Source of the DNA: Crambe crambe
Lineage: Eukaryota; Porifera; Demospongiae; Poecilosclerida; Crambeidae
Reading direction: 5' to 3'
Length of the DNA: 64,000 bases
NCBI GenBank assembly: GCA_963924555.1
Contig: OZ004594.1
Location: 4,929,563-4,993,562 of the forward strand
Below are positions 1 to 42,729 of the stretch, in pieces. The first letter of the stretch is position 1; every line of letters begins with the position of its first letter. A program made the position numbers and the translations under genes. The notes under the pieces are model-generated. The model was not told where the DNA came from and did no database searches. It worked only from the letters and a program-made list of their open reading frames with translations.

Positions 1-431
1 ATTGTTTAGATCTAGAAGGGAATATCATTGCCATATAGACTCAGCATGGGGATCTACCTTCAGTGCAAAATGCATGTAAACAGGTTACCACTATGGCTCA
101 TGCTTATGCCTTATATGGGCATAGTTATCAGTGATATCATTAACTACACAGCTGGGTGATGTCAAATTATCATTAGACTACAACATGAATAATTCCATAT
201 AATGAGGTAACTATGTGTAGTAACCACTTGCTTGGCATGCAGGTATCTAAGTCGGTTAGATCACTCCAGTGAGTGTTACTTATTGTAAACCAATAGGTGA
301 ACCTCGTAGTCACTCACTGTGGTGATCTAACCTATACATATATCACCCTCTGTACTGAAGTGAAGATAGCAGTGCTAGTAGGTTATAAATGGCTCTTATA
401 CATGCGTACATGATGTTGTAATTAATTTTAG
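1..431 (+). other. LMF1 intron 5, 3' part (unit A)
   Basis: No coding exon was found here. By comparison with unit B, where the same bases lie between exon 5 and exon 6, this is the end of LMF1 intron 5. It ends with a normal ...ttttag acceptor in front of exon 6 at 432. Confidence 0.85.
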
Positions 432-3400
432 GGGCTGATCAAGATCAGGGGGGATCAATGTTGGAGGGATTTAACTTGTATGAATTATCATTATGAGGTA
501 TATAATTATGCTAAGTTAATAATTTTCACCAATTATTTTATATGATGCATAAAAGCTAGCTAACAGTATTCTACTAGAAAGAGATGAAATGGTGACTATT
601 TGGAAAATTTTAGGACGTTATTTCTGGCATAAATTAAAGTATATAAAAGGTTTTTTTCCATTCAATATAGAACAGTTTCATTTCAGTATTAAACTTCCTC
701 CCCAAATATTAAACCTTTATTGTTCTTCACATAGTCTACAGATATACGACTCACAGTTTTCTACTGATGTCTTCTTTTTTTCTTTTCTTTTTTTTTTTTT
801 TTTTTGCCATACGAGCAGACCCAGCCTGTGCCTAATCCTCTCAGCTACTACCTCCACCAGAATCCAGAGTTCATACACAAGGCAGAAACACTTGCAAACC
901 ATGTTGTGGAGCTGATAGTTCCATTTTTTATCTTCCTTCCTCGTCCCTTTCGCTTGATCTGTGGTATTCTGCAGGTATTTTTCCAGGTAACCAAGTACCA
1001 TGCAATGATAATAATAGTGTGCAGGTATTACTTATAGCCCCACAATATCAGGTAACAATTCATTATGGATACAGTTTCATTTTCAGTAGCTCTATAGTTT
1101 AATAAGGACACTATTGTAGTGCATCTTTGTAATTTGGAAGGCAGCTACATTATATTAATTTTGACTTGAAAACACAGCCATTGATGTTAAATGTACAGTG
1201 AACCTGTTTATATAGCAACCTCTGGGGCCACCAAAAGGTGGTCAGGTGGTCTCTTTTACAGAGGTCAAATCAATGATAAAAGCACTATTGGGATAAACAA
1301 GTAGTCAGAGGTGGTCTCTAGACTTAATACAGGTTATATGGCTATCCCAGCTTGATACATCTTTCTCCCAGATTGAAATCTTGCTTAGTATACATAAATA
1401 GACAGGCTTGTAGTGGCGATCTTTGCTGAAAGCTATACTGACTCTCGTGTTACTGCCTAGCTGTGGGAAGTTCTCAATAAAGAGTGACAGATCTTACAAG
1501 GTACAAGGTACAAGGTTGAGTGGATGCTTATACTATATAGCCTCGTCCCCAGGCCCTCCTTTTTAATTATGATTGTGGAGGGCCTGGTACGCGAAAATAT
1601 CGCAAAATCATAGAAACCCCATAGCGTGGGTGTGTCCAAGGAAACGCATTCCCATCGCAACATGGCCTGGCCAGGCCTTAGAAAGAAGAGGCGTTGAGCC
1701 ATTGAGCTGCCACTGAATTCGAGTTTTGCTACGCTTTGCTAGCCTAGCAGCAGATAGTATCGGAGCTGCCTATCGTCTAGATCGAGTAGTCTAGATTTTA
1801 GGCTCAGCTGGATTATAAATAGATCGGCCTCAGAATTCTTCACGAGTTTTAGTAAGTCCTTGGTTTTATAGCCATAGCGAATTGGTCTTTTTGTTGTAGA
1901 GAAACAGCAGAAGTTCTTCTGAACACCTGGTGCCTTTAGGTCGATCCTGTCCGTAGCCCAAATGCGTGGGCATGGTCATAATGCTCTCGTGCACTGCCCA
2001 CGCCCAATTAAGACGGTTCTACCCCCCCGTGACTTCGCATACCAGGCCCTCCACATTCATAACTAAAAAGAGGACCTGGGGGGACGAGGCTATATACTAT
2101 AGGTAGCACTAAATCTTATCTAGATCTGCATTTCAGAGAACTGTTTATTTTTCTATTTGCAGCCAGTTGCATGTTGTAGTCACTGTTTGTTATTTGTGGG
2201 TACTAAAAATTATTATTCTCACTAAAATCTACAAGGTGCAAAAGACTGTGTTTTTAGTGTTATATCCAATGCTAACTAAGCTGCATCTGCTTTAAAAATC
2301 TTCCAATGGAGCTTATGCTAACAAATGACTTCTCTCTGGGTTACACAAACTGTCATTTCTTCCCGATTGCTCTGTGCTCATCTCCCGACTGTGTGCAAAG
2401 TCGTCGCTCAGAACTACATCTTTTTTTCGCCTGTGGCACCATCTTTTCAGTCCTTTTACAATCTTGATCGCTATAAATACAAACAGCACAACCTGTGGAA
2501 CAGCCAACAAAAAAGCCAGAAAGTATAATGCTGTAATAACATGAAACTCTATGGTACTTGCTGAGATGATTAACTGCATTAAGATGCTCTGTAGTCCAAA
2601 GAGAGCTAGAAGCAAGCCATCGTATGTGTTGTAATGTTCCACTTTGTACGGTCGAACTGCTAACACTGCAACTGATGAGGAAAATAAGATAAGCCCTCGG
2701 ACTAAGAACGTGATAGCATTAGGAATGTGTATATATGTTGACGTCATAATCAGAATGGGTCTGAGAATGAGATAGAGAATTGAAAACAAGCGCAGATCAT
2801 ATGAGTTATCAGTACCATCCTTATAATGACCTTGCAGTTTCTCAGTGAATACATGGATGTGCTGTAGTATCGTCCCATTACCAAAGCATGCTAGGAATCT
2901 CCTAAAACACTTGAAAGAGTAGCAGCTCAAAAGAAGAAGTATGGAAACAAGGAAGGCTAAAGCAGCCACTGCTGGTACCACATATGTGATGTGAGAAGAC
3001 CCCATAAACTTCATGGTGGGATCTACATGGACTGCCTTATATTCAATCCTTGGGGGATGTTCATTTAGATTCTTGATATGAGAATATCGAAGAATCAATG
3101 CAGAACTGACAATGATTTTAGTGCAAGATAGCAGAAATAAAGTAGCAATGACGTCAATTACAGATGCCTTCGGGTTCCATATTGATCTTATGCTACTCAT
3201 GCATGACTTGAAAGGTTTGAAGAGCTTCTGGAAAAGAGGGACTTGACATCTGAAGTCATTTAGCTTCAAGATCATGTAGGTGATGACTATCAGGAAAAGG
3301 AAGTAGATAGGTGAAACATAGTGCAGCATATTTACATGGATGCTTCTTATTGACTCACTGATGCAAAATTCTGGGAGAACATGCAGAAAGAAATCCAGAT

Positions 3401-6132
3401 TCCACGGTTCATAGAGTGTTGTGAGAGTCTTGAAAAAAAATCTTAGAAATGGAGTACCTTTCATATTTATGGTGTTCATAACAAGTTCATCGTAGTTAAG
3501 AGGTGTAACTACCATTTGACTACAAAACACAAAGCAACTCATTGTCGTGGTAGCAATTGAGATTTGTAGAGTAAAAATGATGAGATAGAATATAGTGATA
3601 GGTACAAACTGGAAGAAGATGTAGAGCAACCAACCACGCCACAGATGAGAACATTCAGCACATTTATATCCAATTGTGAGGACAGATGTCCCATAGCCTT
3701 CTTTGCAGCGCTCACAGATCAATCCTTCCCTGTTGAGAGGGTCACAAAAGAAGCTATTGATTTGCGACAGATTTGTTGGTATTTTCAGAGCCAAATAGTT
3801 ATCCAAGTGTTGATACTTGATATAAGGACACGAGGCTTCATACAGAGTAAAATTATCATAAGTCATGCAACGATTGACATCCAAATACAACTCTCCAGCA
3901 ATGCATTTCATTTCATTCGGTAGATCATCCCTGCAGATGCATTTGCTTCCGTTCTGGACTGATATTTCCCACAGCAGGCATTCTCGGTTCGAATCTCTAA
4001 ATGTAGCTTCAGTGATACAGCATAGTGATATCATCAATATGCAAAATGAAAAAAACTCGACAGAAGACATCACTATAGCTAACTGTTGCTACTTGGCTCC
4101 TGATTTCAATGTTAGCTACGTACACGATAGTTTTGATAATTGCTTTCAATTCAGTTTCCATGTGTGTGTGTTTTAAGAAGGAAATGAGTCATAATAATCA
4201 TAGCAAAGACGAATACGGCTGAGAGAAACAAATATTGATGGTTCCTTAGGTTGATTATGCACAATAATTTCAATTGGCATCGTTATATCATAGGTTGTAC
4301 TCATCTTGAGTGGAAACTTGAGTTTCTTGAATTGGCTGACCATTCTTCCCTCCATATTCTGTTTTGACGATCTCTTTCTCAAAAGCCTGTTTTCTTCTCG
4401 GAGTGTGGCAGAGGTTGGGTGCCTTCAAGAAAAGGACAAGCGTGGAGAGAAATATCCACTAGGTGAATACATGCATGCATGCAGCTATTATTGGTCTAAC
4501 ACAACTGGTGTATAATAATTTTTACATATTGTTTTATAGTTCATCATTAGGATTATGCAAAAAAATTTGTGAAATCCATGAAAATTTTACCCCACAAACA
4601 TTTCCTACTCTTTATGGTATCATTGGTGCTGTAATTATGTAGTATAAGTTGTACACACATTATTATTGCTCCTTAGGCTATTACATTAGACAAGTGTCCT
4701 CTGTGTTCCTTGGACTCCTCCTAGTCTATTTGAGTGTTCCTGTAATCCAAAATCTCTTCTCCTCCCGTCAAGTGATGAACACTTCCTTCGACTCCTTCAA
4801 AATTGTCAACACTTATGGAGCATTTGGGAGGTTAGAGGTTACTGTTATAGACTGCATGGTACTAAATTAAGTTCAAAGTTCACATTTATATGCTTGTGAA
4901 GCCATGGGCCTTGTATCAATATATTGGAATTAATCTGAAGACTTTCTTTGTAAAATTTTTGAATAGCTAATACTGTATAGCGAAAAGTTTTCGTGGGTCA
5001 AATATTTCGTGGATTTCATCGAGAATAAGGGGTCGTACATCAATATTTTGCAAAACCACGAAAAATTTGACCCACGAAAAATTGGTAGGTACACTTACTG
5101 TAATAACTAATACAGTATTCATTGGACTGTCCACTAGAGTTCATTATATGTCTTTGTGATAGCATTACTAAGCAAAGAACTGAAGTTGTTTTGGAAGGGA
5201 CCATGGATAAGCATATCTCAGCAACTACTAAGTGGAAAGAGATTGAATTTAAGTGCAAACCAGGCAGAATTGATCACAGGCCTTGTATCATCTCACCGTA
5301 TCACTACCGCCTTGACTGGCTCATGTGGTTCTCTGCTTTCCAAAACTACCAGCACAATCCATGGCTGCTCCACTTGGCAGGATAGGTGTTGGCAGGGGAT
5401 CCTGTCGTGCAATCCCTTGTGGCTGAAAACCCCTTCATGGATAAACCTCCTAGGTATATATCTCATTGAGTACTATCGTACTCTCTGATACTTATATCTG
5501 ATTACTGATTTTTTTCTCGGACACCTGCTTTAATGATGTATAAAATCAATTATGAATTAACAACCATGACTGAAAATCAGGATTCTGAATCAGTTTTCAA
5601 TGGGCTATCTTTTGATACCTAAATCATAGAACCAGATGCCAGAAAAGTGTCCGGTAATTGATCACTTACTCTAGTATAAACACTGTAACCACACACCAAG
5701 TAGCTAGTTAGAAGTAACTTCCAGATCCAGTTAGACGACAGTTGAGCTTGTATCCATGGATATGATCCCACCCCCTAGTGTAAACATAGTAAAAGCCACA
5801 GGTTAGTACTTCTACAGGATACACTCAGGAAGTTGTTTATGGATGCCTTAGCAGTATAACTTGTAGTGAAATAGTTGAAGTGCAACTTACGTTATACAGC
5901 ATAGCACTAGCCCATTCGATGCAGAGCTTTTATGATTCTCAACTTTGATTATAGATTTATTCGAGCTCAGCACTATCACTACCAATACACTGTGCTGGGG
6001 AGTGAGGCGGCTAAACAGGGCAAGTGGTGGCAGAGGGAGTTGATAGGAGAATATTTCCCTCCAGTAGCAGCAAGTCAGCTACGTCCCATTCTGGAAGGTC
6101 AAGGGTGGAAGTGGTACAAATTGAAAGAATAG
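432..6132 (+). CDS. LMF1: Lipase maturation factor 1, unit A: exons 6-11, with premature stop
   Basis: Exons are 432-497, 819-986, 4294-4462, 4677-4830, 5163-5453 and 5955-6132, all joined in frame across GT..AG introns; exons 1-5 are left of the window. The translation has LMF1 landmarks: GLIKIRGDQCWRDLTCM, TQPVPNPLSYYLH, SGNLSFLNWLTILPS, RQVMNTSF, NTYGAFGS, TEVVLEG and SPYHYRLDWLMWF. LMF1 is a multi-pass ER membrane protein needed for lipases of the lipoprotein-lipase family to fold and leave the ER. In this copy codon 487 (5383-5385) is TAG where unit D has AAG (Lys). The product would lose its last 82 residues, including the conserved KWW..R..IG.YFPP segment. His also replaces Arg451. All splice sites look normal, so a truncated protein is possible, but loss of function is more likely. 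Confidence 0.9.
1538..2092. mobile_element. Short inverted-repeat element (MITE-like), 555 bp, 9 bp target duplication
   Basis: The element begins TAGCCTCGTCC and ends with the exact reverse complement. Longer imperfect arms contain the aggccctcc / ggagggcct blocks. It is flanked on both sides by tatactata (1529-1537 and 2093-2101), a 9 bp direct repeat that looks like a target-site duplication. It lies in LMF1 intron 7, downstream of the antisense gene. I see no transposase frame. The TSD length fits Mutator-like or hAT-like elements. The same copy sits at the same site in units B, C and D. Confidence 0.8.
2313..4073 (-). CDS. Cys-rich multi-pass membrane protein nested antisense in LMF1 intron 7 (unit A)
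   Basis: A single-exon frame of 586 residues. I do not recognise a named family. Residues 1-23 look like a signal peptide. Residues 30-145 form a Cys-rich outer domain with Cys at 32, 45, 47, 57, 69, 82, 110, 120, 123, 138 and 141, including two CxxC pairs. N-glycosylation sequons lie at 41, 74 and 101. About eight or nine hydrophobic segments follow, near 147-171, 175-192, 249-270, 304-328, 362-388, 429-450, 452-474, 483-505 and 511-538. Between segments lies the motif HVFTEKLQGHYKDGTDNSYD; the last 45 residues are a polar tail. A receptor, channel or transporter at the cell surface is plausible but unproven. The start is the first Met of a signal-like N-terminus. A minus-strand AATAAA lies at 2144-2149, about 165 bp past the stop. 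Confidence 0.85.
   Translation of the reverse strand: MMSSVEFFSFCILMISLCCITEATFRDSNRECLLWEISVQNGSKCICRDDLPNEMKCIAGELYLDVNRCMTYDNFTLYEASCPYIKYQHLDNYLALKIPTNLSQINSFFCDPLNREGLICERCKEGYGTSVLTIGYKCAECSHLWRGWLLYIFFQFVPITIFYLIIFTLQISIATTTMSCFVFCSQMVVTPLNYDELVMNTINMKGTPFLRFFFKTLTTLYEPWNLDFFLHVLPEFCISESIRSIHVNMLHYVSPIYFLFLIVITYMILKLNDFRCQVPLFQKLFKPFKSCMSSIRSIWNPKASVIDVIATLFLLSCTKIIVSSALILRYSHIKNLNEHPPRIEYKAVHVDPTMKFMGSSHITYVVPAVAALAFLVSILLLLSCYSFKCFRRFLACFGNGTILQHIHVFTEKLQGHYKDGTDNSYDLRLFSILYLILRPILIMTSTYIHIPNAITFLVRGLILFSSSVAVLAVRPYKVEHYNTYDGLLLALFGLQSILMQLIISASTIEFHVITALYFLAFLLAVPQVVLFVFIAIKIVKGLKRWCHRRKKDVVLSDDFAHSREMSTEQSGRNDSLCNPERSHLLA
4976..5090. mobile_element. Small inverted-repeat element in LMF1 intron 9 (unit A)
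   Basis: The left arm is tatagcgaaaagttttcgtg followed by ggtcaaat. The right arm, atttgacccacgaaaaatt, is its complement. In units A, B and C the outermost right bases are missing; unit D and the fragment at 59654-59785 keep them. Confidence 0.6.
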
Positions 6133-7406
6133 CTATAGCTACCTGGATAATACAAACCTGCTGTTCTAAATAATTTGTACACAGTTATGATGATGTGCAT
6201 GAGCAATCAATTTCTATCTTAATGTTTTATTATTGGAAATCATACAGTATGACTTGAGGACTGGTATGCATCCTAGCTGTAATAGTGAGGCTTCTATCAA
6301 GTAATGTCACGTTAGTAGCTTTGTTATTCTGCAGGATATAATATAGTATAGATGATGGGCATGTAGCTAAGGATATTATATGACAGGCAGGCTTGCTAGT
6401 CTCACTGTAGCCAGACCCAATCCTTTATAAAAATGAAAGAATTGGGTCTGGCTACGTGAGACTACAGACTTGCATGGTTGATGAAAATGTTAATTCAGTG
6501 TTAATTTGTTATAGTGATACTTGTAATTAGTTTTCTCACTATTCTGTACTTCAATTTTTTATTGTTGAACCAAGCAACTAGTATTTGACCTTTGACCCCA
6601 AATCTTGGATTTTCTCTGAGCTATTTGTGAAAACTTTCCTTGAAAACAATCACTACAGGCATATGAAATATACAGGACATTACAGCTGAGAGTGGAAGTT
6701 CCAGTATAATTTTAAAAGTGGTTTGTGGTTTGTTCATCATGCATACAACTAGTTTGTGGTAGCTATTGTGGTTTGAAGCCATGTGTGTTGTTTTTAAAAA
6801 AAAATTATTTTTTTTTTTTTTTTCATTTTAGATATGCTTTCAGCTAGTGCTTTCATTTTTTGATACTTACTAAATGAAATGGTTGGTGATCATTCTCTTT
6901 ACCTTTAATAACTCAGTGCCCTTTCTGATGTGGCAGGGCTAACTAGTGAGATTTTGGCATTGGTACCTATCTTCAGTACATCGGACATCTCGATGCAAAA
7001 TGGATTACTTTGCATGTGGTATGAAAATCATGCAAAAAAACTAAAGTCTAGCTTGAACACACACTGAACTGCAGGACAATGAAGTGACACAGCAAACTTT
7101 CTACTCATAAAAGGTTTCTGAGATTTGAATGGAGGCTTAAATTGCCCTTTCTTTATAGTGTGGAGCAATCAGATTGCTTGTATGTTGAACGAATAAAAAG
7201 TTGTACAGGTTTTATTGGCACTACTTTTCTAACTTTCTCTAAACTGATCAACTTTAGTACACCGGACATCTCGATGTGTTCCCTAATTTTTAAGTTGCTA
7301 TCTGTAATTATATGATAAGGTATGCACAAAACATTGTCAGAAATGAAATATGACTGGATGTCACAGTGCACTGTGGGTACGTGGTTTTGTGGCTGCAGTG
7401 CTGGTG
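6133..7406. other. Region after LMF1, no gene seen (unit A)
   Basis: This joins the LMF1 stop to the membrane-protein gene fragment. It holds a hairpin at 6398-6463 (agtctcac...gccagacccaa against ttgggtctggc...gtgagact). It also has a T/A-rich low-complexity run around 6795-6830 whose length differs in every unit. No exon, RNA gene or canonical AATAAA was found soon after the LMF1 stop. The missing MED7 5' exons are not here. Confidence 0.6.
6398..6463. repeat. 66 bp hairpin element (unit A)
   Basis: A near-perfect inverted repeat with arms of about 28 bases around an A/T-rich loop; it reads agtctcac at the left and gtgagact at the right. The same hairpin lies near 23575, 39405 and 55305 in the other units. 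It resembles a minimal fold-back transposon remnant. Confidence 0.7.
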
Positions 7407-7984
7407 AGGGATGATCTACCGCATGAAATGAAGTGCATTGCTGGAGAGTTGTATTTGGATGTCAATCGCTGCATGACATGATAATTCCACTCTGTATGAA
7501 GCCTCGTGCCCTTATATCAAGTATCAACACTTGGATAACTATTCAGCTCTGAAAATACCCACAAATCTATCACATATCAACAACTTCTTTTGTGACCCTC
7601 TCAACAGGGAAGGATTGATCTGTGAGCACTGCAAAGAAGGCTATGGAATATCTATCCTCACATTTGGATACAAGTGTGCTAAATGTTCTCATCTGTGGCG
7701 TTGGATGCTCTACATCTTCTTCCAGTTTGTACCTATCACCATATTCTATCTCATCATTTTTACTCTACAAATCTCGATTGCTACTACAACAATGAATTGT
7801 TTCGTGTTTTATTGTCGAATGGTAGTTACACCTCTTAACTACAATGAACTTGTTATGAACACCATAAATATGAAAGGTACTCCATTTCTACAATTCTTTT
7901 TCAAGACCCTTGCAACACTCTATGAACCGTGGAATTTGGATTTCTTTTTTTTCCATGTTCTCCCAGAATTTTGCATCAGTCAAT
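7407..7984 (+). pseudogene. Membrane-protein gene fragment (unit A)
   Basis: This is the front part of a gene like 61911-63665, cut at both ends. On the left, the first part of the gene and its promoter region are gone: sequence that follows LMF1 in unit D is joined straight to the bases encoding DDLPHEMKC. A 2 bp deletion in the MTYDN codons (atgacatgataat in place of atgacttatgataat) breaks the frame. The rest reads in frame from 7531 to CISQ, then stops. On the right, homology ends at tcaat (7980-7984), where MED7 intron sequence begins. It cannot encode the membrane protein. Confidence 0.88.
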
Positions 7985-8016
7985 GATATGCTTGTTTGAC
8001 ATCATATGATCAACAG

Positions 8017-9605
8017 ATAGAAAGGCTGAGCTCAAAAAGTTGAATCGTTCCATCATTGTGTGCTTCCTGGAGTTATTGGACATCCTTATCTTAAATCCTG
8101 CCTCTTCTGCTGTAAGATTTGTGTGCAATACATAGATGCAAAATGTCGTGCCTAGTAAAACCATCATGATCACTGTACCAGTAGTAAATCTCACCATTAG
8201 GGTCTGGTTGCCTCATGAAGCTACTTACATATGCTGAAATGCATTACACAAATTGCAATGCAGTGGACTCCCTCTAATCTGGCCACCTTTGGGGCCAGCA
8301 GAAGTGTCCTGATTAGAGGGGTGGCCTCATTTCAGGGGTGGATTTATATTATGAAGTATACATTGGGACTTTTAAAAGTGTCCTGAATAGAGGGGTGGCC
8401 TCATTTCAGGGGTCCTGAGAGTTCACTGTACTTATGTCAGCCCTTTGTAAATTTCATTGGATAGCTCAACTTTGCTGCCTATTTTCAAACTACAGCTGCA
8501 ATCCAATAATCAGGTCCTTTCTCTTCCCTCGGGTTGGTAAAAGGTTGGCAAGTGACACTGATCGATCCTAAATGGTCCTTCTTTTTTTTTCTCAGAGGAA
8601 CCAGAAGATTGCTGATCTTAGTTGTCTCTTCATCAACATGCATCATCTCATCAATGAGTTTAGACTGCACCAGGTGTGTGTGTATGTATGTATGTATGTA
8701 TGTATGTATATGACCTTTGACCTTTACCTTAGGCTAAGGAAACTCTGAAGGTTATAATGGAGAGGCAGAAAAAGCAAAGAGAAGAAGTCATCAATCAAAT
8801 CCAAAAGTAGACCATACCATACTGTATCACAATGTGTGTGTGGTACTCCCTGGACAACACTTCTTTGTCAGGGAGAGAAGGGCCACAGTTTTTGACCTAG
8901 GCACTCTCACAGACTTTGAATGCATTTTTGAAGGTACTGTTTCTCGAGCTTTGTACACTCAAACCTAGACCGTTGATAGATCTACGTAACAAAATATTTG
9001 AGCTTGCCTGCAAAATGCTTTGGAGCTGGAGAAATAGCATATCAAAATAAGTTGAGGATTGTGAGGCATTTCACATCTACCCTTCCTACTTGCTGGTTCT
9101 TTATCCAGATGGTTGATTAGTCCAAACTCGCTTCAAAATGAACATAGTATTTTGCATGCAGGGACATGGATGAAGCACGTTCTATCCTTAAAGAATGTGG
9201 AGAATTTGTATGTCAAGCTTCTGCCAGTATCCCACATAGTATGCAGATAGCGCAAGCTTCTGGAGGTGTGGCTTCAGGGAGCGGAGATGTGGAAGAAGTC
9301 AAGGAATCACTTGATGCCAGCACTTCTAAGGTGAATGAAATGACATCAGTGATCAGGGTTCAGTTGTCCCTAGGCTTTGTGGGACACCATGTCTATAGTT
9401 CTACAATCTACTCTCTTACCACTAAGCCTTCTTTGCATCTCCTTTTAATAAAGCAAGGTTTGATACCAGTAATAATGGCACACTATTATTTTGTTTTGAT
9501 TATTTTGTTTATAAGGTATCAAGGACTGATGAAGTGTGGAGATTGGTAGAAAAGAAAAATGCTGAGCTGTGTAACTTAGTTGACTCTCTCATTCCGAATA
9601 TTTGA
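8017..9605 (+). pseudogene. MED7: Mediator subunit 7, 5'-truncated copy (unit B)
   Basis: Five exons join in frame: 8017-8111, 8596-8673, 8733-8806, 9162-9330 and 9516-9605. The translation contains KAELKKLNRSII, FLELLDILI, LFINMHHLINEFRLHQ and ETLKVIMERQKKQ, and ends in a stretch like the MED7 C-terminus (EKKNAELCNLVD). These match MED7 from about residue 72 of the human protein. MED7 belongs to the middle module of Mediator; its C-terminal half forms a hinge coiled coil with MED21 and its N-terminal part binds MED31. The N-terminal exons are absent: the first exon follows the fusion to the membrane-protein fragment by 32 bp. This copy has Lys where C and D have Arg in ARETLK. The third-exon donor (gtagac) is weak. 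Confidence 0.85.
8265..8432. mobile_element. Small repeat element in MED7 intron (unit B)
   Basis: It starts with agtggactccctctaatc and ends with gagttcactgt, which are roughly inverted. Inside, a block meaning 'aggggtggcctcatttcagg' occurs twice. The reverse-oriented relative sits in LMF1 intron 3 (around 14294-14405). It looks like a non-autonomous element. Copies lie at the same place in units C and D. Confidence 0.5.
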
Positions 9606-9728
9606 TCTTATCATTATTTTGTACATCTCACCCACCCGAACTGCGCATGTGTAGTAATTACCAGACCCGCCCTTTGGTGGGTGCTCATCATTTGGAGTAA
9701 GGCTAGTAACACTGTAACGCACTGCGGA
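9606..9728 (+). promoter_or_regulatory. Compact MED7-LMF1 intergenic gap (unit B)
   Basis: Only 123 bp separate the MED7 stop from the LMF1 start; it is 119 bp in unit C and 114 bp in unit D. The gap is richer in G+C than its surroundings and contains the imperfect hairpin acccgcc...ggtgggt. No TATA box is clear. The LMF1 core promoter should lie here or inside the last MED7 exons. Unit B has 9 extra bases (ggctagtaa), and unit C repeats a 5 bp piece. Confidence 0.4.
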
Positions 9729-12700
9729 ATGGCTGACTCCGAAATAGAAGCCAGTTCACTAAGGCAAAGAAAGCGTGTAAAAGATCAAGATAATCCTTCC
9801 AGTGGAAAAGCAGAGGCTATAACTGAAGATTCAACGGAGTCAGTTGTTGTGAAGAATGTTCCTTTGTCATCAAACACCTTTTGGTTAACAAGAATAATTT
9901 TCATCCGATCACTAGGTTTTATTTATTGTAAGTCACTATATATTAATTTCAGTACCTTTACTAGTATATGATATCTAAATTTATTGAGTGCACACACTTG
10001 GAGAGTTACAATAAGTGCACTCTTGATTTCTAGCGATAAACCTTGCACCTTCAGGGAGAGTCTTCTAGGGTGTTTTTTTTAAAGCTATAATGGGTACAGT
10101 AGATCTTCTGCATATCCTGCTCTCACTTATGCAGCTGCTGAGATTATCTGGACTCATGTACATGCTAATTTACATGCATGTTTGCAATAAGTATAGGGTA
10201 AAGTATCTACATCCTGCAGACCACAGATACAGGGCAGCTGCTGCAACATTAGTCTACAAACCATGAACCATTTACCCTGCACCCTTTCTTATTGCTTCTG
10301 AAACCTAAAGCAAATTTACCACCAGTTCTTGACTCATTGTACAATTTTAAATACTGCTTCACATATCCAGACTTTAGTCGGTCACATTGAGTTCAGATAT
10401 GTGAGGGTCTGCTGTACATACTTTTACTCATTCCGATGGAGAATAGAGCCAATCGCTGGTTTTTGTCCATAAGTCACTTGTTAGAATCAATCTCTGCTAG
10501 TTCCTAGAAGGGAAGACCACTGTTTTTGATGGCATAAGAACGAAGAAGTGATCAACCTTCGACCCTGTTCACAAGGCAATATTTGACAATGTATGCATGC
10601 ACATTTATTTAACATCATTATGTGGGGTCGAAGTTGCTTCAGCAAGGACAGCAATGTTAGCTGGCTACGTAAATAGCTGGGCAGCTGGGCACTTCGATAG
10701 TGACGGTTTCAAGCATTCTAGCAAGCTATTTCTTCAGACTGTTGTCCAAGTTCAAAAATAACATGTACTTACGTAGAAGTAACCTCCTCCTTTTCTCCTC
10801 TTCCTTCCTTCTCCTCCCCTCCTCCTCTTCCTCCCCCTTCTCCTCCTCCTCCCCTCCCTCCTCTTCCTCCTCCTTCTCCTCCTCCTCCCCTCCCTCCTCT
10901 TCCTCCTCCTCCCCTCCCTCCTCTTCCTCCTCCTTCTCCTCCTCCTCCCCTCCCTCTTCTTCCTCCTCCTTCTCCTCCTCCTCCTCCTCCCCTCCTCCTC
11001 CTCCTCCTCCTCCTCCTCCCCTTTCCCTCATCCTTCACCCCCTCTCTCCACTTGGATCCTCACTATCTCTCTTTCTCTCCATTAGTTGTGGCATTTCTGG
11101 TTGCCCTGCAACAGAACAAAGAACTGTTGGGGAAGAATGGACTGCTCCCAGTACAACTATACTTGGACAGACTAAGACACCATTTTAAGGTACATCTATT
11201 GTTAGCTTATACCTTGATTCTGTCCTGTATATACATTGCATTTGACTTTGTGGTACATTGTGTTTATTATTGCAGCATACTCTACATAGCTACATGAGGT
11301 ATAGTGGGCCACTATCCCTTCAGTTCTTCCCCCTATGCCCAATATGCCTTCAGTTCTTCCCTCTATGCCTTATGCCTTACTATTTGTATTAAGCAGTGGC
11401 TTCTCCATACCAGCTAGGAGCCATCTTGAAATCGTTCGGCCTCTCCCTTTTATGGCAATCGTGGTCTTGCCCCTATGCCTTCAGTAAATCCTGGGGAGAA
11501 CCCTGTAACAAGTACTGGTGCTACACTATTATAGCTAATTTATGTTTTACAACCCTTGTTAATTCTTCAAATCCATGAAAATCTATGAAAATGTTTGCAT
11601 TAGCTATAGCAATGAGGTGATAATGGGAATCTGATAAATTACTATGCATCACTGACCTGTGATTGTTCAGATGGCTGGTCTGCTAAGTCTAACTTCCATG
11701 ACTACCCTAAATTAAAATTTATTCTTATAAGTATTTGGATTATCAGCCGGTTAGTATAGAGTTTGATTAACCCTCAGCGCGGTAGTCAGTTGTGTCTGTG
11801 TGTGTGTGTATCTGTTACATCGACCGCTCACCTAGTAGCGATTGGAACACTTCAACTTCAGTGTCAGCGATATCTGGACAATGCGATCCTGTGTTTAAAT
11901 TGCTTCGATTTTCGAATAAGGCCTTCATTTCGAAACTAAGGCAGGATTGCCATTCATTCTATATGATGCACATCATAAGCTGCAGGAATCTTGCAAACGC
12001 CAGTCGTCAGGCGTCATCCGTAAATGGACTACTACGCATGCGTATTGTTTGAACTTTTAAAATTGCGCTTGAATTTGGAGAGAAGTAACTTCAAATAAAC
12101 CTTGAAGAGCTGGCTGGTGACTGTTCTAGTATACTTCTAACCTTTGGTGTACAATTAACTCTCTCCAGTGAGATTTTTCGAAGCTCAACGACGAGCATGC
12201 GCAAGAATGCACACTCAGCATTTTGTAAGATTCCTGCAAACCGGAGTACTGCGCGTGGTTTTATGGAATCTTGCAAAATGCTGAGTGTGCATTCTCAATG
12301 AACAACCAATAATAGTTTGCTGCGCTGAGGGTTAGCACTTCAGTGCCTTTCATTCTTATATGATTCCTTCTTCGGAGTTAAGGAAAGGAGAGCTACAAAT
12401 AAGCCCCTGAATGGCCCCATTTTTAGATGATTATAAAAGGTATACCTTATGGCTGAAATATCTGCTACTAGGAGTTCCTGACATGTCCTATGGTTGGCTT
12501 GCTCTGCCTGTAGCCAACAAGAGCAGGACCTGTGAAGGCAAACCTTCTGAAAAGGAAAGATCGTTTGGACTTTAGTGGCTTAGTAGTGCAGGCTTGTTGT
12601 ACACACTATACACGCACACACGCACACACTCATACACACACACACACACACTATTATCGGTATAGATATTCACTAGTACAAAAATCCATGATGTAGGAAA

Positions 12701-15700
12701 TTGAAAGAGAAAACTGGATTATGTAAAACTGTTATTATGTACAGTCATGATATGATGCAATTTTTGATAATGTCATAGTAAATACAATCTGGTTTATACA
12801 ATGCCTTGAGTATATACACAGAAACTTATTGTTGAAATGTACACTTGGGACTAACTCGGCGTTTAAAATTGAATTTCAACATTTCACATAAAATTATGAG
12901 TCAACAAGGACAATAACAACAGTCTGACACAGGACCAGGCAACACAATAAGAGAAAAGTTTGAAATCAGTGCTACGTAATTCAGTGCTATGTCACGTCAA
13001 CTGTGATTTGTTTAATTGCCCCTCCCACCCCCCCACCCCCCGAGTCAAAATGTAAATGCTTTACCCTATACTAAATGAGGCCAGATAATCCAAGCAGCCG
13101 TAAAAGTGAGGGCCTGATATGTGAGGGACTGAGGGTCTACTGTACCAGAATCTAAGCATACACATGCATGTATAATATGTTGTGCAATGATTAAGTTTCA
13201 TATTATGCTACTAATTTAAACTGTCGTGTTCAAATTGGTTGAACTGTTTCAGAAACTCAAAAAATATTTATTGGGCTCAACTCCCCTTCATGGTGATCAC
13301 AGTTTTGCCTATACATTGCATCAGTATCACTATTAAGCCAGTGAGTACATAATCTGCCATTTCAGGCCTTCCTCTCTCACTGTCTGCAGCTGCAGCTGAG
13401 CCATAAAATACAGGTGGTATGAAAAAATGCTTATTGGCAGAACAGTACAACACAGTGTGTAGAACTGAAGGCATGGTTTGTGTCTTGCTATGCCTAAGAT
13501 GTTGGGGTGAAAATCCTCGTAATGTGTTTAGGCCTAGAAAAATGGTAATTGCAGCTTCTAAAGACCAACTTGTTCATTCACTGAAGAAATATTTTCACTT
13601 TAAAATAATCAGGTGCCCTCGAATGTGACAACAACTTACAGTGTATTCAGTGCTGCCCCCTCCCTCTTGTGGTGGGTGCCTACAGCCTCCCTGGATCTGG
13701 GTTTAGACGCTCTGGCCTGGAGTGGCTTGGTGCTGTCAGCTCTACTCGTATTCATGGGAGCTGGAAATGCCCTGTTGTTTGGACTCCTGTGGATTCTTTA
13801 TCATTCCATTGTGAATGTTGGACAGAGATGGTGAGCATGGGCAAATAAGGTGAAAGAGCTTATATAGTGAAACCTCTGTAATGAGACCCCTCAATAGTCA
13901 GGACACTTCTTAGTGAGACCCCTCAATAATCAGGACACTTCTTAGTGAGACCTCTCAATAATCAGGACACTTCTTAGTGAGACCCCTCAATAATCAGGAC
14001 ACTTCTTAGTGAGACCCCTCAATAATCAGGACACTTCTTAGTGAGACCCCTCAATAATCAGGACACTTCTTAGTGAGACCCTTCAAAGATTCGAGGTAGA
14101 TATCATAATCAGGACACTTCTTTAGTGAGACCCCTCAAGGTGGACATTAAGTGAGACCTCAATTAAGGTGGTCTTTATGATCATGTGTGTAAGGTGGACT
14201 TTATAATCTATAATGAGACTCCTCAATGTGAACTCCCTGAAATAGATAGTCATTCCAGTAGTTATTGGCCTAAAAAAAAATTCTACATGGGAATACAGTG
14301 AACTCCCTCTAATCAGGACCCCTGAAATGAGGCCACACTTTCATAATACAAATCCACCCCTGAAATGAGGCCATCCCTCTAATCAGGACACTTCTCCTGG
14401 CCACATAGTATAATTGTTGTATCATAATAATAATCATTTATACACGTTTTGTACACTCTTAGGTACTCCTTTGGTGAGTTTTAGTGTATAACAGGAGACT
14501 CTTGTGCTACTGTTCATTATTCCAACAGGCTGGGAGTCACAGCTACTGGAAACAGGATTCCTTGCCATCTTCATGTGCCCCATCATCAGTCTTAACCCCT
14601 TTTCACATGCCACACCCACTCCTCTGGTGGTCATATGGGGCTATCGCTGGCTCTTATTCAGGATCATGCTTGGAGCTGTGAGATGATTCTGTTATACTAT
14701 AGGCTATTCCAATGCTGTACTCATCTTATAGCCTACTAGCACTGCTATGACTAGAGTTTAGTGAACACATGTACCCCGCGCAATAGCTGTGTGTATGTGT
14801 GACTAGAGCTTAGCAGCACCAGACACTGGAGCTAGCTGATAATGACCGACCAGCTAATTTGGCTGAACTAGTTCACCGATAGACACAAACTTGAGCTTAG
14901 GCAGACACTTGACCGATACACACTAAACTTGAAAGATAGTTGTAGCTTTATAGTCTAGGCAGACACACTAGTAGTAGCACAGCTCAATATCTGTTCATGT
15001 TACGTCAGCTGACTTGACCGTAATTGCCAAATTAATAATAATGGTGGGTGTGGTTTGTGAAGTGTGCTTTAATAGAAACTGCAGGATTGTTGAGTGCAGA
15101 AAGCGTTATTGAACACTGTGACTGAAGCATTAGGCTACAAAGTGGAAGAAGAAGCCTCGACCAGCGCTTTACAACATAAGTCATCCGCCAAGATGGCATT
15201 CAGAGATTTTACTTTTGTACACATATAATACTACCTATCGTGCCCACCCCAATAATTTTCCCCTTGCTGCACATGCGTGCGCAGGGTAATTATGCTTTAA
15301 TTAAATGTTTCCTGTACTCGAGGCTACAAGTCATGTACAATTAGAGCAAGGAAGAACTGAGGGAGACCTCTCTGTTCAACAAAAACCAACTAGGTCCAGA
15401 CCAAAGGACTTCCAAAATTGTTTAGATCTAGAAGGGAATATCATTGCCATATAGACTCAGCATGGGGATCTACCTTCAGTGCAAAATGCATGTAAACAGG
15501 TTACCACTATGGCTCATGCTTATGCCTTATATGGGCATAGTTATCAGTGATATCATTAACTACACAGCTGGGTGATGTCAAATTATCATTAGACTACAAC
15601 ATGAATAATTCCATATAATGAGGTAACTATGTGTAGTAACCACTTGCTTGGCATGCAGGTATCTAAGTCGGTTAGATCACTCCAGTGAGTGTTACTTATT

Positions 15701-18700
15701 GTAAACCAATAGGTGAACCTCGTAGTCACTCACTGTGGTGATCTAACCTATACATATATCACCCTCTGTACTGAAGTGAAGATAGCAGTGCTAGTAGGTT
15801 ATAAATGGCTCTTATACATGCGTACATGATGTTGTAATTAATTTTAGGGGCTGATCAAGATCAGGGGGGATCAATGTTGGAGGGATTTAACTTGTATGAA
15901 TTATCATTATGAGGTATATAATTATGCTAAGTTAATAATTTTCACCAATTATTTTATATGATGCATAAAAGCTAGCTAACAGTATTCTACTAGAAAGAGA
16001 TGAAATGGTGACTATTTGGAAAATTTTAGGACGTTATTTCTGGCATAAATTAAAGTATATAAAAGGTTTTTTTCCATTCAATATAGAACAGTTTCATTTC
16101 AGTATTAAACTTCCTCCCCAAATATTAAACCTTTATTGTTCTTCACATAGTCTACAGATATACGACTCACAGTTTTCTACTGATGTCTTCTTTTTTTCTT
16201 TTCTTTTTTTTTTTTTTTTTTGCCATACGAGCAGACCCAGCCTGTGCCTAATCCTCTCAGCTACTACCTCCACCAGAATCCAGAGTTCATACACAAGGCA
16301 GAAACACTTGCAAACCATGTTGTGGAGCTGATAGTTCCATTTTTTATCTTCCTTCCTCGTCCCTTTCGCTTGATCTGTGGTATTCTGCAGGTATTTTTCC
16401 AGGTAACCAAGTACCATGCAATGATAATAATAGTGTGCAGGTATTACTTATAGCCCCACAATATCAGGTAACAATTCATTATGGATACAGTTTCATTTTC
16501 AGTAGCTCTATAGTTTAATAAGGACACTATTGTAGTGCATCTTTGTAATTTGGAAGGCAGCTACATTATATTAATTTTGACTTGAAAACACAGCCATTGA
16601 TGTTAAATGTACAGTGAACCTGTTTATATAGCAACCTCTGGGGCCACCAAAAGGTGGTCAGGTGGTCTCTTTTACAGAGGTCAAATCAATGATAAAAGCA
16701 CTATTGGGATAAACAAGTAGTCAGAGGTGGTCTCTAGACTTAATACAGGTTATATGGCTATCCCAGCTTGATACATCTTTCTCCCAGATTGAAATCTTGC
16801 TTAGTATACATAAATAGACAGGCTTGTAGTGGCGATCTTTGCTGAAAGCTATACTGACTCTCGTGTTACTGCCTAGCTGTGGGAAGTTCTCAATAAAGAG
16901 TGACAGATCTTACAAGGTACAAGGTACAAGGTTGAGTGGATGCTTATCAGAGAGTGCGGTAGCACTCTCTAAGTAGGGATGGCAGGTCAAAGTCCATAGG
17001 ACAGTATAAACTAAAAACTCTTCTTTCTCTTCTACCCTTACTCTACAGGTTCTCAGAAGGCTACAGTGAATTATTATATCTACAAAGAAGAGAGGAGAAT
17101 GTTCAAAAGCCAAAAATTCATTCGCCAACATAAGAAAAAAACGAGTTCTAAAATTGACTTTTCGTTCTTTTTCTTTATAATAATAATAATAATAAGGATA
17201 ATAATAATAATAATAAGATCGACGTACCGACTTACTGGCTATAGTCATCAAAATTCTGCTTTGGCCATCTGTTAGAGCGGCACCTAGAGGCTGATCTTTT
17301 GCTATTAGTTTTGACTAAGGCTCTACTTCACTATTCGATAGCACTCGGAACACAGCTGCTAATCTTTCTACGCCATTTTGAAGGGGGCGGGGCTTATGGG
17401 CGGAGCCACGTAAGCTTAAGTTTAGCTATAGCCAAGGTCTTCATTCATTATCTGATGATGTTCCAGTCACTCCTTGCTGAATTACAGTACAGATGCTCAT
17501 CCTATAGTAGCATTATAGCCAGTACTTTGCTGTAGTGTAGTCAGCTCACTTCACCATGCCGTGTACATGTCATTTACATTGCTGTTGCTGTAAAGTTTTA
17601 TATCAACAAAACTTAAATAGCTAAACAAATTCTTCAACCAGAGACACTGTATGTACCTACAAAAGAGGTTTATGTAGAGCTGGCTTTGTATAGTACTGTA
17701 CTGTAGCCTCCCTCATTCAACTTCAAGCACTAAGAAAAAGGATAGAAACAAGTGAGCATAAAAAATAAAAAGGTTAAGTAGGGATAGCCTAAAATCTAGC
17801 TGGGCTATCTATAATGTGCTGCAGCCTCGTATGAAAAAAATCTTCGCGATATTACCTCATAAAAGGGGTGGGGCAATTAATAGCAGTTCTCCTCATATAA
17901 CACCTGCACAGGATGTGGCCATTTGATGGCATCCACTATTATGATCACTACACCAAATGCATAAACTCCCCATACTCCTCCCTCAAGCAAGACATACGTA
18001 CCATCTCAATAATTATTTCAGTGATCACATATGTAACAATTAGCTAATGCTGTTCACTTTTTAAAATGTTCACTCCTTTCAGTACTCCATTACACTGCAG
18101 ATGATCATCCTTCAAACTCTCCTCCCTGAACAGAATGAAATACTGATCATTAAATCAATCAAGGAAGCCTTTAGTGTCTATCAATTTTCATAATCACAAA
18201 GAAAAAGAATGCAAACAAGTGAATGCAAAAAATTTCTTCGAAATAAAAATGTGAAGTAGGGATGTTATTATAACTGCAGCTTCATTATGAAAACTAAGTA
18301 CTGCAGCATCGAAGCAGTATGGCCCAAAAATCTAGCAGGAATATGTATTATAACTGCATGCAAGAGAGTGAACTTAGTGAAGTGACCCTTACCCATCATC
18401 AAGTACAAGATACTATTCCTACTTCACTCCCATGATCAAGGGCCAATGGAGTGAAGTAGGAATAGTATCTCGTACTTGATGATGGGTAAGGGTCACTTCA
18501 CTAAGTTCACTCTCTTGCATGCAGTTATAATACATATTCCTGCTAGATTTTTGGGCCATACTGCTTCGATGCTGCAGTACTTGGTTTTCATAATGAAGCT
18601 GCAGTTATAATAACATCCCTACTTCACATTTTTATTTCGAAGAAATTTTTTGCATTCACTTGTACTATATAGCCTCGTCCCCAGGCCCTCCTTTTTAATT

Positions 18701-21700
18701 ATGATTGTGGAGGGCCTGGTACGCGAAAATATCGCAAAATCATAGAAACCCCATAGCGTGGGTGTGTCCAAGGAAACGCATTCCCATCGCAACATGGCCT
18801 GGCCAGGCCTTAGAAAGAAGAGGCGTTGAGCCATTGAGCTGCCACTGAATTCGAGTTTTGCTACGCTTTGCTAGCCTAGCAGCAGATAGTATCGGAGCTG
18901 CCTATCGTCTAGATCGAGTAGTCTAGATTTTAGGCTCAGCTGGATTATAAATAGATCGGCCTCAGAATTCTTCACGAGTTTTAGTAAGTCCTTGGTTTTA
19001 TAGCCATAGCGAATTGGTCTTTTTGTTGTAGAGAAACAGCAGAAGTTCTTCTGAACACCTGGTGCCTTTAGGTCGATCCTGTCCGTAGCCCAAATGCGTG
19101 GGCATGGTCATAATGCTCTCGTGCACTGCCCACGCCCAATTAAGACGGTTCTACCCCAGTTCTATCCCCCCGTGACTTCGCATACCAGGCCCTCCACATT
19201 CATAACTAAAAAGAGGACCTGGGGGGACGAGGCTATATACTATAGGTAGCACTAAATCTTATCTAGATCTGCATTTCAGAGAACTGTTTATTTTTCTATT
19301 TGCAGCCAGTTGCATGTTGTAGTCACTGTTTGTTATTTGTGGGTACTAAAAATTATTATTCTCACTAAAATCTACAAGGTGCAAAAGACTGTGTTTTTAG
19401 TGTTATATCCAATGCTAACTAAGCTGCATCTGCTTTAAAAATCTTCCAATGGAGCTTATGCTAACAAATGACTTCTCTCTGGGTTACACAAACTGTCATT
19501 TCTTCCCGATTGCTCTGTGCTCATCTCCCGACTGTGTGCAAAGTCGTCGCTCAGAACTACATCTTTTTTTCGCCTGTGGCACAATCTTTTCAGTCCTTTT
19601 ACAATCTTGATCGCTATAAATACAAACAGCACAACCTGTGGAACAGCCAACAAAAAAGCCAGAAAGTATAATGCTGTAATAACATGAAACTCTATGGTAC
19701 TTGCTGAGATGATTAACTGCATTAAGATGCTCTGTAGTCCAAAGAGAGCTAGAAGCAAGCCATCGTATGTGTTGTAATGTTCCACTTTGTACGGTCGAAC
19801 TGCTAACACTGCAACTGATGAGGAAAATAAGATAAGCCCTCGGACTAAGAACGTGATAGCATTAGGAATGTGTATATATGTTGACGTCATAATCAGAATG
19901 GGTCTGAGAATGAGATAGAGAATTGAAAACAAGCGCAGATCATATGAGTTATCAGTACCATCCTTATAATGACCTTGCAGTTTCTCAGTGAATACATGGA
20001 TGTGCTGTAGTATCGTCCCATTACCAAAGCATGCTAGGAATCTCCTAAAACACTTGAAAGAGTAGCAGCTCAAAAGAAGAAGTATGGAAACAAGGAAGGC
20101 TAAAGCAGCCACTGCTGGTACCACATATGTGATGTGAGAAGACCCCATAAACTTCATGGTGGGATCTACATGGACTGCCTTATATTCAATCCTTGGGGGA
20201 TGTTCATTTAGATTCTTGATATGAGAATATCGAAGAATCAATGTAGAACTGACAATGATTTTAGTGCAAGATAGCAGAAATAAAGTAGCAATGACGTCAA
20301 TTACAGATGCCTTCGGGTTCCATATTGATCTTATGCTACTCATGCATGACTTGAAAGGTTTGAAGAGCTTCTGGAAAAGAGGGACTTGACATCTGAAGTC
20401 ATTTAGCTTCAAGATAATGTAGGTGATGACTATCAGGAAAAGGAAGTAGATAGGTGAAACATAGTGCAACATATTTACATGGATGCTTCTTATTGACTCA
20501 CTGATACAAAATTCTGGGAGAACATGCAGAAAGAAATCCAGATTCCACGGTTCATAGAGTGTTGTGAGAGTCTTGAAAAAAAATCTTAGAAATGGAGTAC
20601 CTTTCATATTTATGGTGTTCATAACAAGTTCATCGTAGTTAAGAGGTGTAACTACCATTTGACTACAAAACACAAAGCAACTCATTGTCGTGGTAGCAAT
20701 TGAGACTTGTAGAGTAAAAATGATGAGATAGAATATAGTGATAGGTACAAACTGGAAGAAGATGTAGAGCAACCAACCACGCCACAGATGAGAACATTCA
20801 GCACATTTATATCCAATTGTGAGGACAGATGTCCCATAGCCTTCTTTGCAGCGCTCACAGATCAATCCTTCCCTGTTGAGAGGGTCACAAAAGAAGCTAT
20901 TGATTTGCGACAGATTTGTTGGTATTTTCAGAGCCAAATAGTTATCCAAGTGTTGATACTTGATATAAGGACACGAGGCTTCATACAGAGTAAAATTATC
21001 ATAAGTCATGCAACGATTGACATCCAAATACAACTCTCCAGCAATGCATTTCATTTCATTCGGTAGATCATCCCTGCAGATGCATTTGCTTCCGTTCTGG
21101 ACTGATATTTCCCACAGCAGGCATTCTCGGTTCGAATCTCTAAATGTAGCTTCAGTGATACAGCATAGTGATATCATCAATATGCAAAATGAAAAAAACT
21201 CGACAGAAGACATCACTTTAGCTAACTGTTGCTACTTGGCTCCTGATTTCAATGTTAGCTACGTACACGATAGTTTTGATAATTGCTTTCAATTCAGTTT
21301 CCATGTGTGTGTGTTTTAAGAAGGAAATGAGTCATAATAATCATAGCAAAGACGAATACGGCTGAGAGAAACAAATATTGATGATTCCTTAGGTTGATTA
21401 TGCACAATAATTTCAATTGGCATCGTTATATCATAGGTTGTACTCATCTTGAGTGGAAACTTGAGTTTCTTGAATTGGCTGACCATTCTTCCCTCCATAT
21501 TCTGTTTTGACGATCTCTTTCTCAAAAGCCTGTTTTCTTCTCGGAGTGTGGCAGAGGTTGGGTGCCTTCAAGAAAAGGACAAGCGTGGAGAGAAATATCC
21601 ATTAGGTGAATACATGCAAGCATGTAGCCATAATAATTGGTCTAACACAACTGGTGCATACATATTGTTTTATAGTTCATTAGGATTATGCAAAAAAAAA

Positions 21701-23309: not shown

Positions 23310-24584
23310 CTATAGCTACCTGGATAATACAAACCTGCTGTTCTAAATAATTTGTACACAGTTATGATGATGTGCATGAGCAATCAATTTCTATCTTAAT
23401 GTTTTATTATTGGAAATCATACAGTATGACTTGAGGACTGGTATGCATCCTAGCTGTAATAGTGAGGCTTCTATCAAGTAATGTCACGTTAGTAGCTTTG
23501 TTATTCTGCAGGATATAATATAGTATAGATGATGGGCATGTAGCTAAGGATATTATATGACAGGCAGGCTTGCTAGTCTCACTGTAGCCAGACCCAATTC
23601 TTTATAAAAATGAAAGAATTGGGTCTGGCTACGTGAGACTACAGACTTGCATGGTTGATGAAAATGTTAATTCAGTGTTAATTTGTTATAGTGATACTTG
23701 TAATTAGTTTTCTCACTATTCTGTACTTCAATTTTTTATTGTTGAACCAAGCAACTAGTATTTGACCTTTGACCCCAAATCTTGGATTTTCTCTGAGCTA
23801 TTTGTGAAAACTTTCCTTGAAAACAATCACTACAGGCATATGAAATATACAGGACATTACAGCTGAGAGTGGAATTTCCAGTATAATTTTAAAAGTGGTT
23901 TGTGGTTTGTTCATCATGCATACAACTAGTTTGTGGTAGCTATTGTGGTTTGAAGCCATGTGTGTTGTTTTTTAAAAAAAAAATTTTGTTTTTGTTTTTT
24001 TCATTTTAGATATGCTTTCAGCTAGTGCTTTCATTTTTTGATACTTACTAAATGAAATGGTTGGTGATCATTCTCTTTACCTTTAATAACTCAGTGCCCT
24101 TTCTGATGTGGCAGGGCTAACTAGTGAGATTTTGGCATTGGTACCTATCTTCAGTACATCGGACATCTCGATGCAAAATGGATTACTTTGCATGTGGTAT
24201 GAAAATCATGCAAAAAAACTAAAGTCTAGCTTGAACACACACTGAACTGCAGGACAATGAAGTGACACAGCAAACTTTCTACTCATAAAAGGTTTCTGAG
24301 ACTTGAATGGAGGCTTAAATTGCCCTTTCTTTATAGTGTGGAGCAATCAGATTGCTTGTATGTTGAACGAATAAAAAGTTGTACAGGTTTTATTGGCACT
24401 ACTTTTCTAACTTTCTCTAAACTGATCAACTTTAGTACACCGGACATCTCGATGTGTTCCCTAATTTTTAAGTTGCTATCTGTAATTATATGATAAGGTA
24501 TGCACAAAACATTGTCAGAAATGAAATATGACTGGATGTCACAGTGCACTGTGGGTACGTGGTTTTGTGGCTGCAGTGCTGGTG
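23310..24584. other. Region after LMF1, no gene seen (unit B)
   Basis: Same content as 6133-7406: the hairpin near 23575-23641 and a variable A/T-rich run near 23970-24000. No exon or RNA gene is seen. Confidence 0.6.
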
Positions 24585-25165: not shown

Positions 25166-25197
25166 GATATGCTTGTTCGACATCATATGATCAACAG

Positions 25198-26782: not shown

Positions 26783-26901
26783 TCTTATCATTATTTTGTA
26801 CATCTCACCCACCCGAACTGCGCATGTGTAGTAATTACCAGACCCGCCCTTTGGTGGGTGCTCATCATTTGGAGTAACACTGTAACGCACTGCACTGCGG
26901 A

Positions 26902-41002: not shown

Positions 41003-41034
41003 GATATGCTTGTTCGACATCATATGATCAACAG

Positions 41035-42615: not shown

Positions 42616-42729
42616 TCTTATCATTATTTTGTACATCTCACCCACCCGAACTGCGCATGTGTAGTAATTACCAGACCCGCCCTTTGGTGGGTGCTCATCA
42701 TTTGGAGTAACACTGTAACGCACTGCGGA

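Follow-up and report, generated by a model that had tools for sequence, protein, structure and literature searches.

A five-unit tandem array on chromosome 14 of the sponge Crambe crambe: probable origin in one duplication with breaks inside two genes, followed by unequal crossing-over

A tandem array of five units, placed on chromosome 14 (C17, 6,798,520 bp) of the sponge Crambe crambe (assembly odCraCram1.1, GCA_963924555.1; genome of 143,139,886 bp in 119 contigs), very probably began as one tandem duplication of about 15 kb and was then brought to its present number by unequal crossing-over. The window under analysis is a stretch of 64,000 nucleotides (C17:4929563-4993562); 50 kb to its left and 30 kb to its right were added, and the resulting 144 kb were compared with themselves using BLAST, negative positions being window coordinates leftward of the window start. 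This self-comparison gave five units in one phase (U0, U1, U2, U3 and U4), every one of them carrying exons 3-7 of MED7, LMF1, a membrane-protein gene (M-) located on the opposite strand in an LMF1 intron, and a second copy of that same membrane-protein gene (M+), which is scrap in U0-U3. The first-pass annotation, whose units A, B, C and D correspond to U1, U2, U3 and U4, had proposed one founding tandem duplication with its left end in a MED7 intron and its right end in M+, and the two outer units bear this out: U0 keeps MED7 exons 1-2 and U4 continues into M+. The signature of one founding event is thus present, but the units as found today are not simple copies, U1-U3 being recombinants of U0 and U4; the view that all units are equal copies was rejected on the divergence pattern together with a scan of informative sites.

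Leftward of the break, a 4.4-kb flank with TANGO6 and the 5' end of MED7 is single-copy apart from short repeat matches. TANGO6, recognised by Pfam, lies on the - strand at -27153 to -23106 (L010:2847-6894), in head-to-head orientation to the whole MED7; the TANGO6 frame stops 38 bp from the MED7 start codon, and the promoter region may be common to both genes. On the other side of the array we rejected U5 as a member, a copy without the MED7 part that begins inside LMF1; its well-aligned blocks are mostly some 2-12% diverged, with one block beside M- far nearer to U1 and U4. Regarding features of single units, the insertion private to U2 (16948-18658) has a palindromic stretch of ~450 bp at its right end and is probably a mobile or fold-back element, since parts of its sequence are met again at other places of the region. 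A 32-bp minisatellite in an LMF1 intron differs in copy number, with 6.4 in U2 (13882-14086), 19.4 in U3 (31009-31627) and 21.4 in U4 (46877-47559).

Table 1. Coordinates of the units, genes, joints and switch points of the array, in window positions.
Feature	Position	Strand	Description	Basis
U0, leftmost unit	-22598..-7445		begins 22.6 kb left of the window	self-comparison
U1	-7444..7971	+	right half in the window (1..7971)	self-BLAST
U2	7972..25152	+	17.2 kb, carries a private 1.7-kb insertion	
U3	25153..40989	+	15.8 kb	
U4, rightmost unit	40990..57270	+	M+ homology goes on beyond its end	
U5, older partial neighbour copy	~65700-77260			
Junction U0/U1, fourth, outside the window	-7440..-7436 (C17:4922122-4922126)		15.4 kb left of the first	
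Junction U1/U2	7976..7980		5-bp microhomology TCAGT, M+ (left) / MED7 intron 2 (right)	alignment with intact intron and continuing M+ copies
Junction U2/U3	25157..25161		sequence identical to the U1/U2 junction	
Junction U3/U4	40994..40998		sequence identical to the U1/U2 junction	
U0 MED7 exon 1	-23068..-22913			
U0 MED7 exon 2	-22683..-22617			
U2 MED7, exons 3-7 only	8017..9605	+	8017-8111, 8596-8673, 8733-8806, 9162-9330, 9516-9605	U0 exon model and Pfam Med7
U3 MED7, exons 3-7 only	25198..26782	+		U0 exon model, Med7 profile
U4 MED7, exons 3-7 only	41035..42615	+		U0 exon model, Med7 profile
LMF1 (lipase maturation factor), U2	9729..23309	+	in-frame TAG at 22560-22562, C-terminal domain	Pfam LMF1, exon and codon comparison
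M- of U1	2316..4037	-	open (aligned part), nested in LMF1 intron	
M- of U2	19456..21231	-	open over 591 codons from stop to stop, antisense within an LMF1 intron	
M- of U3	35284..37005	-	open (aligned part)	
M- of U4	51210..52931	-	open (aligned part)	
M+ fragment, end of U1	7407..7980	+	start codon and signal peptide missing, frame shifted by 2 bp and closed by TGA at the joint	
M+ fragment, end of U2	24585..25161	+	truncated	
M+ fragment, end of U3	40422..40998	+	truncated	
382 bp found only in U4, with the M+ start	56322..56703	+	absent from U0-U3	
M+ copy D, right edge	56578..58354	+	homology complete, frame broken	
Switch from U4-like to U0-like, U2 (and U3, by alignment)	21355..21618		spans LMF1 exon L7	
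Switch of U1	equivalent of 21748-21921			

The four internal joints all have one sequence, in which a 3'-truncated M+ at the right end of one unit is joined to MED7 intron 2 at the left end of the next (...GAATTTTGCATCAGTCAATGATATGC at all four boundaries). The M+ of U4 and that of its neighbour E both continue as ...TTTTGCATCAGTGAGTCAATAAGAGG, and the intact MED7 intron reads TGCAGTCAGTCAATGGCATGC, the bases common to it and M+ being TCAGT. Few bases are shared at the breakpoint (these 5 bp) and no long homology, and a microhomology of at least 5 bp between the two genes is expected by chance with a frequency of about 0.006 (0.6% of 200,000 random joints); since the donors are known only via diverged copies, the breakpoint carries an uncertainty of 1-2 bases. 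The joints are not a product of chance matching, because both flanking blocks align, the left one with the rightmost M+ copy (579 columns, 97.4-97.8%) and the right one with the intact MED7 locus (~2.5 kb, 88.5-88.6%); base changes of individual copies are located immediately beside the four joints. Judged from the sequence of the scar, either microhomology-mediated end joining or replication template switching would give such a joint.

A single junction had been claimed at three places in the window, and the alignment returned the same M+/MED7-intron sequence in all three; what follows it is indeed a MED7 intron, identified as intron 2 by alignment with the intact locus, and the 32 bp said to precede the first MED7 exon are exact (7985-8016, the exon beginning at 8017). 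The end of M+ homology had to be corrected: it had been put at the tcaat ending at 7984, 25165 and 41002 (7980-7984 at the U1/U2 junction), a match with M+ that holds when a 4-bp gap is allowed, but ungapped homology stops at 7980, 25161 and 40998 (...TTTTGCATCAGT), and the caat reaching 7984, 25165 and 41002 is MED7 intron in the intact locus (TCAGTCAATGG).

The M+ pieces of U0-U3 are without start codon and signal peptide, because a 382-bp stretch is missing; all four also carry a 2-bp frameshift, and in all four the frame ends with the TGA at the joint. Direct read-through across the joint was accordingly not found, the M+ frame stopping at that TGA, and for this reason no chimeric protein is expected. 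At the right edge of the array, the membrane-protein gene of unit D had been described as running on normally past 57287; homology does continue there, but the frame is broken by a TGG to TAG change and then by an 11-bp deletion, on account of which copy D was rejected as an intact gene. M+ is thus open in none of the five copies (U0-U3 and D). Copies D (broken, 56484-58347 in this comparison) and E (open, 61817-63685) are neighbours, 93% alike, with LMF1-3'-like sequence between them, and this pair is an older duplication of the same neighbourhood.

The scan of informative sites revealed that U1-U3 are hybrids whose left part matches U4 and whose right part matches U0. To the left of the switch, all three units are U4-like at 708 of 906 sites that distinguish U0 from U4, and at 12 all three are U0-like. 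A minisatellite stretch that aligns poorly (alignment columns 6500-9000) holds 324 of those 906 sites, and when it is left out 540 of 582 are U4-like in U1-U3. To the right, the three units are jointly U0-like at 47 of 54 sites and jointly U4-like at none. Nine sites lie between the switches, eight of them U4-like in U1 only and U0-like in U2 and U3, and the switches of the three units are within about 0.6 kb of one another. In agreement with the hybrid model, U0-U3 have in common the loss of 382 bp, the 2-bp frameshift and the LMF1 stop, and U4 has none of the three. Distances, calculated on chosen columns that leave out poorly aligned stretches such as the minisatellite, are 0.10% (U1-U2), 0.33% (U1-U4), 0.65% (U1-U3) and 5.6% (U0 to any other) in the left part; in the right part, U0 and U1 differ at 0 of 3194 sites, U1 and U2 by 0.25%, and U0 and U4 by 1.6%. 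An ungapped alignment of 12,378 bp shows 99.96% identity between the stretches -10846..1531 (from U0 into U1) and 4570..16947 (from U1 into U2), and the youngest step, in the simplest reading, is the 15,416-bp block defined by these two stretches; its ends lie off the MED7 joint, which fits homologous exchange between units.

The left part of U0 and the old neighbour copy U5 stand at similar distances from U1-U4. Because this part is 5.6% diverged and the right part equals that of U1, a second diverged allele or copy would have taken part, and a single duplication of one chromosome does not account for such a U5-level divergence unless an allele or conversion step is added, a point against our best explanation. 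In U3, a stretch at 29538-30898 (equivalent of 12386-13771) has 12 sites equal to U0 and U5 and not to U1, U2 and U4; it would be a conversion tract or an older allele, and a history blurred by conversion in this manner also counts against that explanation.

The following series of events would produce the present array. The founding duplication would have joined a break in M+ to a break in MED7 intron 2 via the 5 common bp, the left unit (U0) keeping the whole MED7 and the right unit (U4) keeping the M+ continuation; U0 and U4 would then have crossed over unequally, in a conserved LMF1 exon or close to it, which would have generated a hybrid unit, U4-like on its left and U0-like on its right, and repeated unequal exchange would have raised the count to five. 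In addition, the founding event would have joined, or the array later met, a diverged allele. We infer both this order and the diverged-allele step, the latter because the MED7 exons diverged mostly under constraint, as described below.

An alternative that we consider unlikely is that errors of assembly account for part of the extra units, haplotypes having been placed end to end (two, or more if the specimen was chimeric, as sponges can be), in which case the true array would be shorter and the left part of U0 would belong to the other haplotype. In line with this, the assembly is described as not fully phased, with 18 haplotypic duplications removed by hand, in the part of its report available to us (PMC12166358), the two 12,378-bp stretches from U0 into U1 and from U1 into U2 are 99.96% alike, and the divergence of U0 switches abruptly. 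A false join, however, would not readily give four identical 5-bp joints with copy-specific changes beside them, and the private insertion of U2 and the differing minisatellite lengths mark the units of the window as distinct. Moreover, the longest exact stretch common to two different units is 3,990 bp, shorter than the mean HiFi read of 6.9 kb that the same part of the report gives (67.94 Gb in 9.82 million reads, microbial reads included; PMC12166358), and there is no N in the 144 kb; for these two reasons the array is not an obvious assembly error. In a protein collection, where rows giving equal contig size were taken as one contig, proteins identical throughout the compared length were found for four of the M- copies: those of U0 and of a copy situated 127 kb leftward of the window are on a contig of 154,579 bp, and those of U3 and U5 on a contig of 327,834 bp. 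Another assembly, which may stem from the same reads, seems to tie each end of the array to its flank and to break within. Unit number and phase are those of one assembled haplotype, and the unit number is what is least certain, most of all in the U0-U1-U2 part with the 99.96% block.

Extension to the left also confirmed that the leftmost unit, outside the window, still has a whole MED7, as had been predicted: in U0 the gene is complete, with exons 1-2 upstream of the point where unit homology begins. This MED7 has 7 exons and 242 aa (C17:4906494-4908611), splice sites of GT-AG form and its stop at -20951, the break falling in the 67-bp intron 2. It matches Pfam Med7 (PF05983) at positions 1-189 of 189 (E 7.6e-49) and human MED7 at residues 6-193 of 242 (E 2.1e-50). 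MED7 is whole in only this one of the five units, the other four keeping exons 3-7 only. A search of the sponge's own genome with the Med7 profile gave 15 matches, 12 of them all in U0-U4 (10 passing the cut-off alone and 2 jointly with neighbours in frame) and three weak ones, namely U0 exon 1 (found once), a U0 3' piece and one stray on C19; no match above the cut-off was found outside U0-U4 in this search, the one on C19 being weak and under it. Two gene models were discarded, one a MED7 of five exons and 157 aa closed by a TAG that follows exon 5, as this TAG is just inside the next intron and exons 6-7 restore the C-terminal end, and the other a separate small gene at 9148-9605, which corresponds to MED7 exons 6 and 7.

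The truncated MED7 copies bear on a second alternative, according to which they are not passengers: read-on transcription from LMF1 through the M+ scrap would give a transcript of exons 3-7 that selection keeps. We regard this as very unlikely, even with LMF1 placed upstream on the same strand and with frame and splice signals of exons 3-7 retained in all four truncated units. Between U4 and U0 these exons show 5 nonsynonymous changes vs 14.3 expected if the MED7 of U4 had been neutral for half of the 7.2% intron divergence (P=0.0045), and 7 synonymous changes vs 7.6 expected from the introns; nonsynonymous changes being this few and synonymous ones as in introns, most of the divergence would have arisen with both copies constrained. 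Selection on live truncated copies would explain such a count, but so would divergence that mostly predates the truncation. Against live copies, furthermore, TGA ends the M+ frame at the joint, exons 1-2 and the start codon are absent, and the proline of the RPHQAR motif, as present in U0 and human MED7, is changed in all four copies, those of U1 and U2 having also changed an arginine of it. Two readings are left, a meeting of two diverged alleles (at the founding of the array or afterwards in U0) and continued use of the truncated copies, and the former is likelier, because all four copies lost the RPHQAR proline. Under our best explanation, MED7 dosage would be unchanged.

The break between exons 2 and 3 corresponds to about residue 75, and there is only a slim chance that the four truncated copies are living genes in which C-terminal residues 75-242 have been multiplied, expressed from the upstream LMF1 promoters. 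Residues 77-157 of the U0 MED7, used as query, align with the solved fragment 1yke, which we take to be yeast MED7 paired with MED21. Were the truncated copies live, the sponge would have several partial Mediator subunits, which could compete with the whole MED7.

Finally, an independent or ancestral joint, with M+ beside the MED7 3' exons as an old separate gene and the MED7 of U0 rearranged, would agree with the left part of U0 being the most diverged of U0-U4, but is already disfavoured and hardly credible, given that only U0 matches the full Med7 profile and human MED7 from its start, that M+ homology passes the joint point in U4 and E, and that both genes look cut short at the joint.

If the array was founded by one duplication and enlarged by unequal crossing-over, the internal units would gain only M- intact, the MED7 3' pieces, the stop-bearing LMF1 and the M+ scrap being passengers. 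LMF1 was recognised by the domains PF06762 (LMF1) and PF25179 (LMF1_C, on the U4 copy). Its in-frame TAG is common to U0, U1, U2 and U3 (4 of 6 copies), with AAG in U4 and U5; the U0 copy is additionally without 15 bp, and that of U5 is without the first exons and carries a stop. Only U4, out of six copies, has all recognised LMF1 exons open, and at this locus it is apparently the only one to retain LMF1 full, in the sense that all recognised exons are open, the model being incomplete at the joint between exon L3 and the next exon. Other LMF1-like exons are located on C3.

M-, in turn, is open in six of six copies (U0-U4 and U5). Its Ka/Ks values are 0.24-0.31 between U0, U1-U4 and U5, and codon comparison indicates that the gene is under purifying selection between diverged copies; within U1-U4 the values range from 0.56 to 1.12 where defined, on 1 to 10 changes, which are too few to judge. 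M- would thus be the only gene that each extra unit adds intact. Counted from the first methionine used, the protein has 573 residues, with conserved cysteines towards the N-terminus, and the predicted model shows a beta-rich N-terminal part and a helix bundle (pLDDT 87). A Pfam search gave no name for M-, and among solved structures a fold search with the M-/M+ protein found no usable counterpart. The family is very large in this genome: 75 of 878 candidates were scored, and they gave at least 76 matches among those listed.

Tandem duplication with intragenic breakpoints is of a kind already known and is ordinary as such; here it is unusually legible. A similar case is Sdic in Drosophila melanogaster, an array derived from the sw-AnxB10 segmental duplication, with six units in about 46 kb in the reference strain, as far as the available part of its description goes (PMC7475035): a duplication across neighbouring genes makes a chimeric entity, which is then repeated in tandem, and expansion and contraction by unequal crossing-over, with gene conversion, are expected. 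Sdic, in contrast, encodes protein variants and affects sperm competition according to the same text (PMC7475035), whereas in the sponge the joint closes the M+ frame, so that a chimeric protein is not predicted. In Drosophila yakuba and D. simulans, tandem duplications that give rise to chimeric genes likewise have their breaks inside genes; in the portion of that report at hand (PMC4503668) they are recently derived and segregate in population samples, whereas the sponge array has five units, recombinant ones included. The 5 bp found here can also be compared with the junction microhomology of 5 to 10 bp given, in the accessible part of the source (PMC2518615), for yeast duplications that arise by microhomology/microsatellite-induced replication, although the yeast pathway was demonstrated by genetics (PMC2518615) and the one in the sponge is known from its scar alone. 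Among the papers listed on sponge or Crambe crambe genomes and tandem duplication, none, judged by title and the start of the abstract, describes this locus.

A single chromosome thus displays the breakpoints of the founding event, the two parental ends, the recombinant units between them and what became of each gene carried, and what had been predicted from one part of the array proved true in sequence beyond it. In the extra copies, a gene nested in an intron has been multiplied intact while its host LMF1 and the edge genes MED7 and M+ are broken.
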